Made by a program: the position numbers and the translations under genes
From: an uncultured Porphyromonadaceae bacterium
GTDB lineage: Bacteria > Bacteroidota > Bacteroidia > Bacteroidales > Muribaculaceae
DNA: 64,000 nt
Direction: 5' to 3'
Assembly: GCA_947427285.1 (NCBI GenBank)
Contig: CANEHE010000003.1
Coordinates: 1 to 64,000, forward strand
Notes under the pieces: generated by a model
What the model was told of the DNA's origin: nothing
The model's input: only the letters and a program-made list of their open reading frames with translations
Databases searched by the model: none
Shown: in pieces, positions 36,682 through 51,284 of the stretch
Layout: the number at the start of each line of letters is the position of its first letter
Position numbering within the stretch: position 1 is the first letter of the stretch

Positions 36682-37389
36682 ATGGAATCCAAATACCACT
36701 ACTCCCCCGACAGAAAAATGGCATCACTTATTGCCGATGACTACCGTCTTATACAGGTAATGACCCGTTTCGGCATCCATGTCGGATTCGGCGACATGAC
36801 TGTCTCCGAAGTATGTCAGGCACAGGGAGTGGATTGCGGCACCTTCCTGACAGTAGTCAATTTTATAGTCGACGGTTACACACATGCCGATATGGCCGGC
36901 ACAATATCAATAGGTTCCCTTCTTCAATATCTCAAGCAAAGCCATACATATTTTCTTGACTATCTACTACCGTCAATACGCAGAAAGCTCCTTGACGGCA
37001 TAAAGACCGATACAGGAGAGGTATCATTCCTCATTCTGAAATTCTTCGACGAATACGTGACTAAGGTGCGCATACACATGGAATATGAAGACCGGACAGT
37101 ATTCAGATACATCGAGTCTCTTATGGAAAATATTGAATTGCCTAATTTCAATATCCACACGTATTCAGATTATCATGAAGAAGTGTCATCCAGCCTTCAT
37201 GAACTGAAAAGCATCATAATCAAATACGGACCGGTAGACGCCGACGTCAATCTGCTCAATGATGTACTTTATGACATATATCGCTGCGAAGAGGAATTGG
37301 AAAGTCATTGTCTTATAGAGGACGAACTTCTGGTTCCGGCCATAGTGTCCTTGGAGAGAGAAACAGCCGCGAAAGGGGGTGATCGATGA
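36682..37389 (+). CDS. hemerythrin-like (ScdA/RIC-related) protein
   Basis: A 235-residue cytoplasmic protein. Residues 8-65 resemble the small helical N-terminal domain of ScdA/YtfE iron-sulfur repair proteins (LIADDYRLIQVMTRFGI...MTVSEVCQAQGVD). Residues 80-225 form a hemerythrin-like four-helix bundle with the metal-ligand patterns SHTYFLDYLLP, HMEYEDRTVF, YHEEVSSSLHELKSII and SHCLIEDELLVPAI. A di-iron centre sensing or handling oxygen, nitric oxide or iron is likely. It overlaps the LuxR-type gene by four bases, so it probably modulates or is regulated with that protein. Confidence 0.82.
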   Translation: MESKYHYSPDRKMASLIADDYRLIQVMTRFGIHVGFGDMTVSEVCQAQGVDCGTFLTVVNFIVDGYTHADMAGTISIGSLLQYLKQSHTYFLDYLLPSIRRKLLDGIKTDTGEVSFLILKFFDEYVTKVRIHMEYEDRTVFRYIESLMENIELPNFNIHTYSDYHEEVSSSLHELKSIIIKYGPVDADVNLLNDVLYDIYRCEEELESHCLIEDELLVPAIVSLERETAAKGGDR

Positions 37390-37988
37390 GACACACCGAA
37401 AAGATTCATATTGTAGTTGCCGAGACATCGCCTGTCATATCCTCAGGATTCAGCTTCTGTCTGCGAAGATTGCCTGGACTGCAGGCACAGACTATCGAGA
37501 CCCATACATACCCGGACCTTATAAACTGCCTGCGAAACAATCCGGTCGACATAGTAGTGGTCAATCCTAATTTCGGAGGCGCATTTGCTCCCCAGCATCT
37601 TCGCGAGACTTTAGAAACCAGCGATCTAAAGATCGTAGCCATCGAGATCAGTCCAATCGACCGCCCTACACGGTCACTCTATGACGACGTGGTGTCTATC
37701 GTGGAGGACCTCCCATCTATGGCGGAAAAGATGAGAAAACTCGCAATCGGTACCACTGAAAGTGAACCGGATAAAGAACCTCTCAGCACACGTGAGAAAG
37801 AGATAATAACATTGGTTGTGAAAGGGATGACCAACAAGGAAATCGCTGATCGGTTGTTTCTATCAATCCATACTGTCATGACACACCGACGCAACATAGC
37901 CCGTAAACTTGAAATCCACAGTGCCACCGGTCTTACAATCTATGCCATAGTGAACCACCTTGTGGATCTCACCGAAATCAAACTCTGA
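37386..37988 (+). CDS. LuxR-type regulator with degenerate receiver domain
   Basis: A 200-residue protein. Residues 1-120 have the fold pattern of a response-regulator receiver, but the phosphate-accepting aspartate is replaced (DIVVVNPN, N60), and the conserved lysine near the end of the domain is not seen. Residues 132-195 are a standard LuxR/FixJ helix-turn-helix: LSTREKEIITLVVKGMTNKEIADRLFLSIHTVMTHRRNIARKL. It cannot be switched by the usual phosphorylation. Translational coupling to the hemerythrin-like gene suggests that the partner supplies the signal. Confidence 0.86.
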   Translation: MRHTEKIHIVVAETSPVISSGFSFCLRRLPGLQAQTIETHTYPDLINCLRNNPVDIVVVNPNFGGAFAPQHLRETLETSDLKIVAIEISPIDRPTRSLYDDVVSIVEDLPSMAEKMRKLAIGTTESEPDKEPLSTREKEIITLVVKGMTNKEIADRLFLSIHTVMTHRRNIARKLEIHSATGLTIYAIVNHLVDLTEIKL

Positions 37989-38092
37989 ACGCAGCTACAT
38001 AACAATATCGATCCTCTTCTGACCGTTAGGGATACAGATGCCCGTTCGTTTGAAGCACCCGACTTTCACGTATCAAGCTTTCCACACCTTTG

Positions 38093-38216: not shown

Positions 38217-38224
38217 TAATTTTG
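38217..38224 (+). promoter_or_regulatory. -7 element of an intergenic transcript
   Basis: TAATTTTG followed by C, an exact TAnnTTTG match in an A/T-rich context; no exact -33 TTTG. The predicted start is near 38231. Confidence 0.5.
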
Positions 38225-38238
38225 CAACAAAATTTAAT

Positions 38239-38364
38239 TTGGAGGTAAAAATACTCAGACATTCGTCTGATGACGATGTAAAGAAAAGCCTTACCAAATT
38301 GAAGTTATCCAAATTACTGAAGAATAACAGTGAAAAAGTAGTGAATAATATCAGTCGTCGGTAG
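38239..38364 (+). CDS. possible 41-residue basic micro-protein (TTG start)
   Basis: A short frame beginning at TTG near the 5' end of the intergenic transcript: about 41 residues, lysine/leucine-rich, ending ...KLSKLLKNNSEKVVNNISRR. The corresponding place in the guaB-upstream copy reads LKNSENIVN before a stop, so the shared DNA keeps a similar short peptide. No ATG start is present and no family is recognised. It may be chance. Confidence 0.2.
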   Translation: MEVKILRHSSDDDVKKSLTKLKLSKLLKNNSEKVVNNISRR

Positions 38365-38527
38365 TCCTAATTCTACCGTGAAAGTCGGTTGGTGTGTGGT
38401 CGGCAACCGAAGGCTGATAGAAGAATCTCTTGTAGTCTATGATGTGAATCATTATAAAGAGACATATTGGGACTACCCCATAAATTGATTAAGTGTTATC
38501 AGGATGGAAAACGAGACCGCACATCGT

Positions 38528-38560
38528 AACCGGACACCACGAGGGGTCCGGTTTTTTTCT
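38528..38560 (+). terminator. strong intrinsic terminator of the intergenic RNA
   Basis: AACCGGAC and GTCCGGTT arms around an ACCACGAGGG loop, followed by TTTTTTTCT on the plus strand. It is directional: the minus-strand side has no T-run, so it does not serve mutL. Confidence 0.85.
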
Positions 38561-38634: not shown

Positions 38635-40518
38635 TTAAAAAAGATGTTCTATCTGGGATACATCAAGAATCTTGTAGACAGGGTTGCCTTCTGGCGTAAG
38701 AGCCGGAGAGGACAGGCTGAACAGTTCGCTGACTATATGCTCCATCTCCGCAACAGAAAGTCTTTGCCCACGACGGATTGCAGCCGAACGAGCCATGACA
38801 AGTGCCATTTTTTCCTGAATATCACGTATAGGTGATCCTTCTCGTCCGTAATCAGTCGAATCATCACATACAGAGCTAAGAATCCGTATAATAACCGAAC
38901 CAGGATCCGCATCATGAAGCGGAGCAGGCACACCGGTGATTTTCCATTTTCCCTCCGCAACCGGCTCCAGTCGGAATCCGAAAGTCTCCAATTCCTCTTT
39001 GACTTCCTCAAGTGCACTGCATTGCACCTCATCAAGGTTTACAACATCCGGAAACAACGACTGCTGTGACGGGGTCTCTCCACTACCACCCGAAGCCATA
39101 AGATGTTCAAAAAGAATCCTGACATGTGCTCTATGCTGGTCTATGATCAGAAGTCCCTCCCGGGAAGGAACAAGTATATATTTTGCAGCCAACTGCATAC
39201 ATACGGCATCTGGGGTCTCAGAAGCATCAACAACAGGTATCGGATCCTCCTTGGGCAATGACACATCATTACCCTCACTCTGATTCATAAACGACTGATA
39301 AAGCGTTTCCCAGTTCTGAGACTGACGTGTAGGACGCCATTGACTTCCGACACCATTCCTTCGACTTTCGTTCTGGGGCTTCTTTTCTCCGATGCCAACA
39401 TCAGAATTGAAATACCGTTCAAACGGATTATAACCTCCCGGCACCTCCATGCTTGGGGCTTTCGGAATCTCCCCGTCACGTAAAGGTTCGATTGGAATGA
39501 TTTCCTCGGTGAAATCAATCGAAGGCACAGCTGCATTCCGACCCAGAGATGCTCTTATCGCAGATGTCAGGATTCTCCATATCTCCTGTTCATTCTCAAA
39601 CTTTATCTCATTCTTGGTAGGATGCACATTGACATCGATTGAGGCAGGATCAACATCAAATTTCAAAAAATAACATGGTTGGGAATCAGATGGGATAAGA
39701 TTTTCAAAACAACTGATTATACCGCGGTGGAAATAAGGATGACGCATGTTCCTCCCATTGACAATAAGATACTGGAGAGCATTGCGTCTTCTCGAATGTT
39801 CGGGACGTGAGACAAATCCGCTTATTTTCACCATGGCAGTGTCTACCTCGACTGGCAGAAGCTGCATGTTGAGATTGTTCTTCCATAGATCACCTATCCT
39901 CTGCTTGAACGATCCGGGGCGCAAGTCAAGCGGACGTCCGCCACGGTCAATCGACATACGGATATTGTTGTTAACCAATGCAAGACGTTCGAACTCCCGC
40001 ATGATGTTGGCCGCCTCGACATTGTCGCTTTTGAGAAATTTACGCCGGGCAGGAATATTGAAAAAAAGATTCTTGACCATTATATTGGTCCCGCGCTCAC
40101 ATACGACCGGCTCCTGCATCTCCACGCGAGACGCATTGATGATCAGATGTGTACCGATGGAATCGGCATCCGTACGCGTTTTCATTTCTATCTGGGCAAC
40201 AGCACAGATGGAAGGCAGTGCCTCGCCTCTGAAACCCATAGTACGAAGAGAAGAAAGATCGGTAGCCTGACTGATCTTGGATGTGGCATGACGCTCAAAC
40301 GCCATACGGGCATCTGTGACAGACATTCCTTTACCATTGTCTATCACCTGAATAAGAGTTCTACCGGCATCCCGGACAAAAATACGTATCTCCGTGGCAC
40401 CGGCATCGACAGCATTTTCCACCAATTCCTTTATCACAGACGCAGGTCGCTGGATTACCTCCCCGGCCGCGATCTGGTTGGCCACTGAGTCCGGCAACAG
40501 TCGTATAATATCACTCAT
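38635..40518 (-). CDS. mutL: DNA mismatch repair protein MutL
   Basis: A 627-residue MutL. The N-terminal GHKL ATPase shows ELVENAVDAGATEI, DNGKGM and GFRGEALPSI. The C-terminal dimerisation region carries IIDQHRAHVRILFEHL, a variant of the DQHA(X)2E(X)4E endonuclease motif in which the first glutamate is valine. It couples MutS recognition to strand cutting in the cytoplasm. Its start overlaps the OstA-like gene's stop by four bases (ATGA), so a DNA-repair gene is translationally coupled to an envelope operon. Confidence 0.98.
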   Translation of the reverse strand: MSDIIRLLPDSVANQIAAGEVIQRPASVIKELVENAVDAGATEIRIFVRDAGRTLIQVIDNGKGMSVTDARMAFERHATSKISQATDLSSLRTMGFRGEALPSICAVAQIEMKTRTDADSIGTHLIINASRVEMQEPVVCERGTNIMVKNLFFNIPARRKFLKSDNVEAANIMREFERLALVNNNIRMSIDRGGRPLDLRPGSFKQRIGDLWKNNLNMQLLPVEVDTAMVKISGFVSRPEHSRRRNALQYLIVNGRNMRHPYFHRGIISCFENLIPSDSQPCYFLKFDVDPASIDVNVHPTKNEIKFENEQEIWRILTSAIRASLGRNAAVPSIDFTEEIIPIEPLRDGEIPKAPSMEVPGGYNPFERYFNSDVGIGEKKPQNESRRNGVGSQWRPTRQSQNWETLYQSFMNQSEGNDVSLPKEDPIPVVDASETPDAVCMQLAAKYILVPSREGLLIIDQHRAHVRILFEHLMASGGSGETPSQQSLFPDVVNLDEVQCSALEEVKEELETFGFRLEPVAEGKWKITGVPAPLHDADPGSVIIRILSSVCDDSTDYGREGSPIRDIQEKMALVMARSAAIRRGQRLSVAEMEHIVSELFSLSSPALTPEGNPVYKILDVSQIEHLF

Positions 40519-42569: not shown

Positions 42570-43922
42570 TCACTTGGCAGTCCAACCCTTGTATCGGAAA
42601 TCGCAATTGTCCCAGCCGTCCTCGATCCTCACGTATGTCTCTTTTATTTTCTTCTCTACCCATTCATTGACGATCTCATCTTTCCGATATGTCTCATACA
42701 TCTGTTTGAGAAGATTATAGTCATCGCTCAGATTTGCCCTGTGGCCATCGGTGCGTCGGGCCAGACGCACAATTGCCACCACGTCCTTGTTGCGCTTGGG
42801 ATCCTTCATAATGAAAGCCTCGGAGATATCACCCTCCTTCATAGACTCGATGTGACGGGCTACTTCCTGTGGAAGATCCTGCATCTCAAATCTTGAACTT
42901 CCGGTTTTCTGATTTACCATCAGACCCTTGTTATTGCGCGTATCCTTATCCTGCGATATGTATCGCGCAGCCTCCTCAAAAGGTATTTTTCCGGCCACAA
43001 TCTCCTTGCGGAGTGAATCCAGACGGTTGACAGCGGAAGTCAGTTCCTGTGTGGACACTTTCGGAGTGAGGAGAATATGCCTTACATTCGCCTGATCACC
43101 ACGCTTCTCTATAAGCTGTATTATATGAAAGCCATACTCGGTCTCCACAATACGGCTTACTTTCTTCGGATCGGAAAGATTGAAAGCCACTGCAGAAAAC
43201 TCAGGCACGAAGTCAGCCCGGCTGTGAAATCCAAGTTCGCCACCCTGCATGTTCGAACCATCCTCACTATACATTATGGCAAGAGTGTGAAAATCCGATT
43301 CCCCACGGTTTATACGATCCGAATAGTCGCGTAAACGTGCCTTCACATCCTCTATCTCCTGTTGGGGTATGGTCGGATTGATCGTGATGATCTGGGCCTC
43401 CACCTGCATAGGAACAAACGGGATGCTGTCCGGAGGAAGTTTATCGAAATATTTCCTTACATCGGCCGGGATTGCCTTGACATTCTTTGTCAAGGAATTC
43501 TGAACCTGATCAATAATATACTGGGTTTTCATCACCTCCGTGAGCTGATCGCGCAACTGTGGAAGCGATTTGCGGAAATATTCCTCTACTTTTTCTCTTG
43601 AGCCGAGATTGGCGATAAAGAAATTTATACGCTTCTCCACCGCACTGTTCACCTGTGCCGCAGGTGCCTCGATGGTGTCAAGTTTCGCCTGATGGAGATA
43701 TAGTTTCTCCACTGCCATCTGTTCCGGAATGGCACAGAACGGATTCCCCGGAGGAAGAGCTCCCTCGCTGCGTAACTGTGAATATTGTTCTTCCACATCG
43801 GAGCGGAAAATCGCCTCGTCACCTACCACCCAGGCCACCTCGTCGATGATGTTGGTCTTGGTCTGCGCCACAGCAGCTATCGCAGCAGCCGCAAACACTA
43901 TGCCTATAGTCTTAAGTCTCAC
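42570..43922 (-). CDS. SurA-like periplasmic peptidylprolyl isomerase
   Basis: A 450-residue periplasmic chaperone/isomerase. The signal peptide is MRLKTIGIVFAAAAIAAVAQ. A SurA-type N-terminal helical region follows (DEVAWVVGDEAIFRSDVEEQYSQLRSEG), then two parvulin domains at about 175-270 (GGELGFHSRADFVPEFSAVAFNLSDPKKVSRIVETEYGFHIIQLIEKR) and 280-375. The start codon is GTG: no ATG is available in frame near the signal peptide. It assists outer-membrane protein folding and sits among two related genes. Confidence 0.9.
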   Translation of the reverse strand: MRLKTIGIVFAAAAIAAVAQTKTNIIDEVAWVVGDEAIFRSDVEEQYSQLRSEGALPPGNPFCAIPEQMAVEKLYLHQAKLDTIEAPAAQVNSAVEKRINFFIANLGSREKVEEYFRKSLPQLRDQLTEVMKTQYIIDQVQNSLTKNVKAIPADVRKYFDKLPPDSIPFVPMQVEAQIITINPTIPQQEIEDVKARLRDYSDRINRGESDFHTLAIMYSEDGSNMQGGELGFHSRADFVPEFSAVAFNLSDPKKVSRIVETEYGFHIIQLIEKRGDQANVRHILLTPKVSTQELTSAVNRLDSLRKEIVAGKIPFEEAARYISQDKDTRNNKGLMVNQKTGSSRFEMQDLPQEVARHIESMKEGDISEAFIMKDPKRNKDVVAIVRLARRTDGHRANLSDDYNLLKQMYETYRKDEIVNEWVEKKIKETYVRIEDGWDNCDFRYKGWTAK

Positions 43923-47895: not shown

Positions 47896-49434
<1,539 letters not shown>

Positions 49435-49530
49435 TCAAAAACATTCCGGAAACATCGAAGGCGTAGATTTGACCATAAAACCGCAGTTATAATCCGGATT
49501 ATACCATTATCCGGTTTGAAAACATTATTA

Positions 49531-49570
49531 GAAAAAATGCCGGGAAACACGTTTACGTCTTCCCGACATT
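49531..49570 (-). terminator. strong intrinsic terminator of the guaB-upstream RNA
   Basis: On the minus strand AATGTCGGGAA and TTCCCGGCATT arms, running into TTTTTC. It separates the RNA from the guaB promoter. Confidence 0.85.
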
Positions 49571-49809
49571 CTGTGACACTTCTCGCTTCTTCCGGTAATT
49601 GACATTCCAGCACCCCCTATATGCCGGTCACTGCTCCTCGTTCGGTTCGCACCGTGTGATGAAAGAATTCCACGGACTCCGTTGCCGGGAGTCGGGAAAA
49701 CCTAAAGAGTTCTCGCATTGCCCCGGAAAAGCGGTGTCTGGACGTTTCACAAGTCAGAATTAGGACTTTACAGACAATACGGTCAATTCACTATATTTTC
49801 ACTATTTTT
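49531..49809 (-). ncRNA. candidate structured RNA upstream of guaB
   Basis: About 280 bases with a -7 element in front and a strong terminator behind, read leftward. The fold visible by eye has a small hairpin AAGTC-CTAATTCT-GACTT, then a long outer helix in which CGCTT-TTCCGG (49723-49733) pairs with CCGGAA-GAAGCG (49584-49595), extended by GACAC/GTGTC. Inside lie the hairpins GACTCC/GGAGTC, CGGT/ACCG and CCGGCA/TGCTGG. The 5' part is homologous to the RNA near mutL. A 6S-like RNA is possible, but conserved features of 6S, RNase P, tmRNA or SRP RNA were not recognised. Confidence 0.6.
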
Positions 49810-49815
49810 CAAGCG

Positions 49816-49823
49816 CAAAATTA
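49816..49823 (-). promoter_or_regulatory. -7 element of the guaB-upstream RNA
   Basis: TAATTTTG followed by C on the minus strand, an exact match. The predicted start is near 49809. The -33 element is unclear. Confidence 0.55.
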
Positions 49824-49939: not shown

Positions 49940-50764
49940 TTACTGTTCCTCGGGAAGGGTTGTCGGTGAATCAGCCTCCTTTTTTGAAAGAGGTATTGTA
50001 TATATCGCAGAAAAGGTAAATGATAACGGTGAACCCGCACCATATCCCGGAATGAACCAGGGCTGGGAATTGCTTCCAGGACTGGTGTGAAACTTTACAT
50101 GATATCGGCCAGTCCATCCCAATGAGAAGCCCTTCACAATCTTAACCTTAACACCGGCAAGAATCTCACCATAGAAGGCCGACGCCTTCTGACCGGTAAT
50201 CGAGAAGTGATCTGTCTGATCCCAGTAGCCGGATGAAACCGTGATGTCGTTGATGTCGTAGGAAAACGATGAAAACCCGGCTCGCAGACCAAGAAAAACC
50301 TGATAATCCGGTGACGATTTGTAAAGAAAATTATAATTGATCCCCAACTTGGCATAGAAAGCAGGCTTGGCTACGTATGTGAAGTTACCTGTTTCCGGGG
50401 TAGTCTTTCCAAACCCGACACCGGCTTCAATCACAGGAACAAACCAGTTATGAAGAGAAAGTTCTGCAAACGCGTCAAAACTGGCATGCTTCTGGCCTGC
50501 AGCCAGCATCACTGCGTCAAAGAAATTTACACCTACGCTCAACGAAGTGAGCAACGGATATTTCGGACCCGATGAGGGCTTCGCCACTGTGTCAAGATCC
50601 GTAAGGAACTCCACCGGTTCCTTCAGTGGATTGCCATGTTTGTCATAATAATATAGTTTGGGCTTCTCAGGCTTTTTGTCGTCAGTCTCCACAGGTGTCA
50701 CCTTCCTCTGGGCAAAAACAGTCAGTGGAAGTATGGCCATAAGAAGAAGCAGTATCCGTCGCAT
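49940..50764 (-). CDS. DUF6048-like outer-membrane beta-barrel protein
   Basis: A 274-residue exported protein starting MRRILLLLMAILPLTVFAQ (signal peptide); the ORF track's 21 extra codons overlap the previous gene and are rejected. The remainder alternates aromatic and polar residues in the manner of a small outer-membrane barrel (SLSVGVNFFDAVML, FSLGWTGRYHVKFHT, PLSFTFSAIYTIPLS). I assign it to the DUF6048 family from its position after a DUF6452-like lipoprotein. The function is unknown. Confidence 0.75.
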   Translation of the reverse strand: MRRILLLLMAILPLTVFAQRKVTPVETDDKKPEKPKLYYYDKHGNPLKEPVEFLTDLDTVAKPSSGPKYPLLTSLSVGVNFFDAVMLAAGQKHASFDAFAELSLHNWFVPVIEAGVGFGKTTPETGNFTYVAKPAFYAKLGINYNFLYKSSPDYQVFLGLRAGFSSFSYDINDITVSSGYWDQTDHFSITGQKASAFYGEILAGVKVKIVKGFSLGWTGRYHVKFHTSPGSNSQPWFIPGYGAGSPLSFTFSAIYTIPLSKKEADSPTTLPEEQ

Positions 50765-50768
50765 CGGT

Positions 50769-51284
50769 TCAAGGTGCTGTAGTGTCATCGACACGGAAAT
50801 ATATGAATATATTGGTGATATTGGCATTGGTGATCCGACCGTCGGGACAGCTCACGGAATCTATGAAATGAGTGGTATGCGACACACGGACATTATCGTA
50901 GATATAGACAGCTCCACAAGCCGAGCTGACAAACTGCGGCACAATGTCGTATGTAAATGTGAGCGTATCTCTCATATCCTGACTGGCAAGCAACTTCTGA
51001 AGATATTGTATCACGTAGGTAGTAGAACCCTCATCTATACGAAAAGGGAGAAAGGTCTGGGATACATTGACCGCCGAATCAAGAAGTATACTGTCGCCCG
51101 GAGCACCGATACCATAAATTGACAACGAATCAATGCTCACGGACTGCGGCTCCAATGCTGACGACATAAAGGCCGCCAACGGAAGTGAATTCTTATTTCC
51201 CTCGCATTCGTCGGACGCACATCCCTGAATCACCGCAAAAAGCAATGGAAAAGCGAACACAAGATATAGATGCGGTTTTCCCAT
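50769..51284 (-). CDS. DUF6452-like lipoprotein
   Basis: A 171-residue lipoprotein with lipobox VIQGC after a hydrophobic signal. The mature part is a compact beta-rich domain (SIDSLSIYGIGAPGDSILLDSAVNVSQTFLPFRIDEGSTTYVIQY). It pairs with the barrel gene that starts five bases after its stop, as the two families usually do in Bacteroidetes. Its ATG overlaps the glycosyltransferase stop (TGATG). The function is unknown. Confidence 0.75.
   Translation of the reverse strand: MGKPHLYLVFAFPLLFAVIQGCASDECEGNKNSLPLAAFMSSALEPQSVSIDSLSIYGIGAPGDSILLDSAVNVSQTFLPFRIDEGSTTYVIQYLQKLLASQDMRDTLTFTYDIVPQFVSSACGAVYIYDNVRVSHTTHFIDSVSCPDGRITNANITNIFIYFRVDDTTAP

Follow-up and report, generated by a model that had tools for sequence, protein, structure and literature searches.

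We analyzed a window of 64,000 nucleotides from a Muribaculaceae genome and found in it two intergenic loci, copy 1 and copy 2, that share a core of about 65 bases. In the reading that we consider most likely (probability about 0.42), they are two genes for trans-acting, base-pairing small RNAs (sRNAs), which derive from one ancestral core by an old duplication within the lineage and use a 12-mer of that core as their seed. This reading is favored because the loci combine promoter-like and terminator-like ends with a presented loop. Chance resemblance ranks close behind it; in that case, the two intergenic regions would be unrelated, at least one of them harboring an untranslated region or an orphan sRNA of an ordinary kind, and would share AT-rich words of the GTGAA type plus the 12-mer. 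If real, the pair would be a small new set of regulatory RNA paralogs from a Bacteroidales lineage of the gut type that is not Bacteroides; to our knowledge, few sRNAs have been described in such lineages.

Genomic context and transcription signals

Copy 1 lies in a gap of 646 bp between a gene for a LuxR-type regulator (37386-37988, plus strand) and mutL (38635-40518, minus strand), and copy 2 in a gap of 520 bp between a DUF6048 gene (49940-50827, minus strand) and guaB (47896-49419, minus strand). The gene block that separates the copies is entirely on the minus strand and consists of guaB, a gene of the cytidylyltransferase family, three genes of the PPIase type (one scoring under the Pfam cut-off), an OstA-like gene, and mutL. 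As the first-pass annotation had stated, both loci lie outside genes, without a long open reading frame at either, and each has a -7-like element upstream (Table 1), which is separated from the core by about 10 nt in copy 2 versus about 105 nt in copy 1. In line with the intrinsic terminator that it had assigned to each locus, the computed folds place a hairpin with a T-run downstream of both copies; a generic terminator scan listed neither of these 3' hairpins. It is plausible that the loci represent two intergenic transcription units with a common core, copy 1 being well structured, and judging from the sequence signals both would be transcribed, with lengths of about 330 nt for copy 1 and 280 nt for copy 2. 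A role of copy 2 as the leader of guaB was ruled out because the DNA 5' of guaB is unrelated in relatives and guaB carries a separate TAATTTTG of its own.

Table 1. Features of the two loci, with window coordinates
Feature	Positions	Strand	Basis or remark
-7-like element TAATTTTG (TAnnTTTG), 5' of copy 1	38217-38224	+	Pattern match
Copy 1 candidate transcript, about 330 nt	38228-38560	+	Predicted from signals and fold
Copy 1 shared tail AGTGAAAAAGTAGTGAAT, with a pair of AGTGAA spaced by 11 nt	38329-38346	+	
Copy 1 P1 5' arm TATCAGTC	38349-38356	+	Predicted fold
Copy 1 P2 hairpin CGGTAG-TCCTAATT-CTACCG	38359-38378	+	Pair probability about 0.8
Copy 1 P3 hairpin	38385-38410	+	Predicted; no counterpart in copy 2
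Copy 1 P1 3' arm GGCTGATA	38412-38419	+	Predicted fold
Copy 1 terminator-like hairpin AACCGGACACC/GGGGTCCGGTT, then T-run	38528-38558	+	Predicted fold
-7-like element TAATTTTG, 5' of copy 2	49816-49823	-	Pattern match
Copy 2 candidate transcript, about 280 nt	49530-49811	-	Predicted from signals and fold
Copy 2 shared tail AGTGAAAATATAGTGAAT	49786-49803	-	
Copy 2 P1 5' arm CGTATTGTCT	49772-49781	-	Predicted fold
Copy 2 P2-like hairpin AAGTC-CTAATTCT-GACTT	49751-49768	-	Other register than copy 1
Copy 2 P1 3' arm GGGCAATGCG	49714-49723	-	Predicted fold
Copy 2 terminator-like hairpin (AATGTCGGGAA..TTTCCCGGCATT) with T-run	49531-49570	-	Predicted fold

The shared core and its chance level

The alignment of the two stretches, originally reported over about 60 bases, was recovered at the same places and strands and spans about 65 bases (38327-38390 on the plus strand against 49805-49739 on the minus strand), with 41 invariant columns. 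Common to both copies are AGTGAAAAnnTAGTGAAT, the 12-mer AGTCCTAATTCT, and GTGAAA, and both cores keep the same order: AGTGAAAA-NN-TAGTGAAT, followed by the 12 exact bases of AGTCCTAATTCT and then by GTGAAA. Across the 2.38 Mb of the genome, the 11-mer GTCCTAATTCT is found in the two cores and nowhere else. When either transcript was compared with the window by BLAST, E values of 0.001 to 0.06 were obtained.

As a null model of chance, all intergenic regions of the window were dinucleotide-shuffled in 400 sets, and the best-scoring pair of each set was taken. The observed score was reached in 0, 6, and 9 of these sets under three gapped schemes (about 0 to 2%), and in 99 (25%) under a strict 2/-3 scheme that scores the first 25 bases of the match only. 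At the sequence level, a match beyond chance is therefore best called suggestive rather than firm. These window-wide levels of 0 to 2% and 25% leave room for a chance resemblance and, since the whole genome has some 40 times as much intergenic space as the window, such pairs should arise elsewhere in it; against this stand the two conserved blocks, the exact 12-mer, and a matching helix (P1, below), which agree in order and spacing, as well as the presence of TAATTTTG at both loci.

Predicted structures of the two copies

The first-pass annotation had placed GTCCTAATTCT in a hairpin loop followed by GTGAAA and had taken the differing stems around it (P2), each of which pairs, as the mark of a conserved RNA structure. 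The sequence is present and GTGAAA does follow, but the 12-mer, which lies inside the P2 hairpin in copy 1 (38363-38374) and inside the P2-like hairpin in copy 2 (49767-49756), is partly stem: with CGGTAG/CTACCG paired in copy 1, its AG and CT belong to the stem, and with AAGTC/GACTT paired in copy 2, its AGTC does. In the sequence alignment, the stem of copy 1 joins columns 34-41 with 50-55 and that of copy 2 joins columns 39-43 with 52-56; copy 1 pairs G41 with column 50, and in copy 2 its partner is column 54. No P2 pair in either copy is changed on both sides in the alignment of the two copies, and random flanks around the fixed 12-mer form a stem of at least 5 Watson-Crick pairs in 6% of cases and of at least 6 in 1.6%. 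Because the registers differ and such stems arise in random flanks, the differing P2 stems are no evidence of covariation, and the argument for conserved structure that was built on them fails. The general lesson is that resemblance between the hairpins of two copies does not amount to covariation unless the pairs share alignment columns.

The two copies also differ in how well they fold relative to shuffles. Copy 1 folded better than 100 of 100 shuffles (z of -3.92); the fold of copy 2 is not significant (z of -1.54 for the full transcript and -0.22 without the terminator), and its P2-like hairpin has a pair probability of about 0.86 in the full transcript and 0.13 without the terminator. This weak folding of copy 2, together with the different P2 registers, is in line with chance resemblance. 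A long-range alternative to P2 in copy 1, pairing GGTAGTCCTAAT (38360-38371) with ATTGGGACTACC (38466-38477), was discarded at a computed probability of about 0.02.

In the predicted folds, an enclosing helix, P1, appears to suit the two copies better than the loop-closing stems. Its arms (TATCAGTC/GGCTGATA in copy 1 and GTATTGTC/GGCAATGC in copy 2) occupy an equivalent place and show compensating differences. When the window was searched with R2, a structure model that was built on copy 1 only and includes the three helices of that copy, copy 2 was the top match after copy 1 itself (16.8 bits, E of 0.1, end-to-end alignment), a ranking also seen with filters off over 20000-64000. All 8 P1 pairs are standard in copy 2 in this alignment, three of them with both sides changed, in an alignment that is fitted to the structure and whose P1 result was equalled in 28 of 500 shuffles. 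P1 of copy 2 can reach 10 bp, a length expected at that placement in 0.8 to 1% of shuffles. It is the best structure when the first 112 nt of copy 2 are folded alone; the best fold of the full transcript is without P1, which there has a probability of 0 and costs 5.4 kcal/mol. Since the E value for copy 2 was weaker with the structure model than with a sequence-only model (0.1 versus 0.0034), structure did not sharpen the match. P1 can be taken as partial support for a related structure in both copies, as modeled from two sequences only.

Search for further copies and homologues

A profile of the shared core (R1) found nothing convincing in the genome beyond these two copies, and a candidate third copy (G000:C7:3670-3720, E of 0.38) was attributed to chance. 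No homologues were found in 111 genomes of the same genus, with either R1 or R2, or in 397 genomes of the family, where R1 gave chance-level matches only; the two sets overlap in part, both contain the window's own genome, and together they comprise more than 450 genomes. The best match in the genus (G276, R1 E of 0.045, 1 of 111 genomes) sits immediately 5' of a gene, at a promoter sequence of the TAATTTTGC type, and the best in the family (G434, R1 E of 0.006, 1 of 397 genomes) is AT-rich and repeat-like; we regard both as chance. In whole-transcript BLAST, copy 1 had no homologue among 41 relatives, where one 31-nt match fell at the terminator, and copy 2 had none among 61 genomes of the genus. 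Synteny was not conserved either: the DNA beside guaB and mutL is unrelated in the nearest relatives. Pattern scans gave 19 matches in GTDB, about the number expected by estimate and none in Bacteroidales, the best of which (L064, a Bacilli genome) reached only 16.6 bits with R1, and 11 matches in viral_contigs, none passing R1 at an E of 0.1. BLAST against plasmids and phages yielded nothing relevant, and Rfam contributed no family at its gathering threshold except a tRNA in the window and nothing credible at E values up to 5.

The homologue search and Rfam comparison proposed with the first-pass annotation were thus negative, an outcome that it had itself named as speaking against a paralogous sRNA family, of which we see these two copies only. 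The copies do not behave as members of a conserved structured RNA family, with representatives in several genomes and covarying stems, as no homologues were found in the 111 genus and 397 family genomes and the P2 registers differ. The lack of homologues in the genus and family sets and of a third copy in the genome also fits chance resemblance. However, the closest relatives are distant (93% amino acid identity for guaB and 66 to 69% for mutL), and absence from them is for this reason weak evidence against a species-level pair; the two candidate sRNA genes perhaps originated as an old lineage-specific duplicate pair.

Possible mechanism and targets

If the two loci do encode base-pairing sRNAs, P1 would close off the shared 12-mer behind the tail with its two AGTGAA, and AGUCCUAAUUCU, presented by the loop together with part of the stem, could act in trans as a seed on mRNA leaders, by analogy with other Bacteroidales sRNAs. 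The GUGAA repeats of the tail might in turn provide a site for a protein or for additional pairing. The searches supported no target. Genome-wide, the 12-mer's complement showed no enrichment, with 9 sites (both copies counted) versus 17 for the reversed control. One complement with a single mismatch (L142, G000:C65:2341-2352) lies some 40 nt 5' of where a catalase-like gene (MDKKRLTAENGRPIADNQ...) starts, a target that we did not accept because 4 of 45 window leaders pair equally well with either copy. Among the tested window leaders, the best duplex of the copy 1 loop region is at 42575-42590 on the minus strand (-19.4 kcal/mol), 39-54 nt 5' of the OstA-like gene and inside the end of the preceding gene. 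Separately, the junction of copy 1 (38377-38391, CGTGAAAGTCGG) has a reverse complement matching at 14 of 15 positions at 38056-38070, about 300 nt upstream and past the LuxR-type gene, which may possibly reflect antisense pairing, or else chance. That the copies form a two-member, lineage-specific sRNA family of new architecture (tandem-AGUGAA tail, P1, and presented AGUCCUAAUUCU) flanking the guaB-to-mutL block, with its genes for envelope proteins of the PPIase and OstA-like types, seems to us less likely than not.

Alternatively, the RNAs might be protein-binding sponges or scaffolds, in which an RNA-binding protein would be titrated by repeated unpaired GUGAA, with the 12-mer forming part of its site. 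GUGAA is the most shared 5-mer, with four occurrences in copy 1 and three in copy 2 versus 0.9 and 0.7 in shuffles, the GUGAAA junction of copy 1 is mostly unpaired by computed pair probabilities, and a precedent exists in RbpB of Bacteroides thetaiotaomicron, which binds single-stranded parts of paralogous sRNAs (PMC11697453). However, GUGAA was picked after looking, and an equally shared top 5-mer occurs in 6% of shuffles (p of 0.06). Known sponges also carry more repeats than these copies, which counts further against a role that we consider improbable. Less probable still is that the tandem AGTGAA, 11 bp apart, acts as a DNA element, such as an operator or recombination site: although the direct repeat is spaced by about one helical turn in both copies and in copy 2 sits just past the likely start site, its position relative to the -7 element differs between the copies, other sites, with as many as 2 mismatches allowed, are no commoner than those of the reversed control (49 versus 53), and a third exact tandem site (C20) was rejected, as it falls at the end of a coding gene.

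Comparison with known RNAs of Bacteroidetes

Bacteroidales-1, Bacteroides-1, 6S-flavo, and Flavo-1 are intergenic structured RNA candidates of Bacteroidetes (PMC2864571). The loci described here are likewise intergenic and from Bacteroidetes, but they have no Rfam match to these even at E values up to 5, and neither copy reaches the gathering threshold of known Rfam families, including Bacteroidales-1, 6S, SRP, and tmRNA. The GUCCY-hairpin motif, for which no Rfam accession is given (PMC2864571, Table 1), would, to judge by its name, be a Bacteroidetes hairpin with GUCC(C/U), which recalls AGUCCUAAUUCU.

For the preferred reading of a base-pairing sRNA pair, the comparison is with FopS/GibS of B. 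thetaiotaomicron, paralogous and mostly intergenic sRNAs with a sigma-ABfr promoter, a terminator, and a seed, common to the paralogs, for base pairing with mRNA leaders; FopS is about 65 to 70 nt long, has a 5' single-stranded seed (GTGTTTTTCATAGTATTAG...) and 12 to 15 copies per genome, and is stated to be deposited in Rfam (PMC11697453). In contrast, the candidates described here are about 280 to 330 nt long, number two in the genome rather than 12 to 15, differ in sequence, with the R1/R1' seed of FopS/GibS (GTGTTTTTCATAGTATTAGATTTAAGG, as printed in PMC11697453) absent from both copies on inspection, and have no Rfam sRNA match in the window. What they share with FopS/GibS, as read here from sequence alone, is that they are multicopy and intergenic, with a common segment between promoter-like and terminator-like ends.
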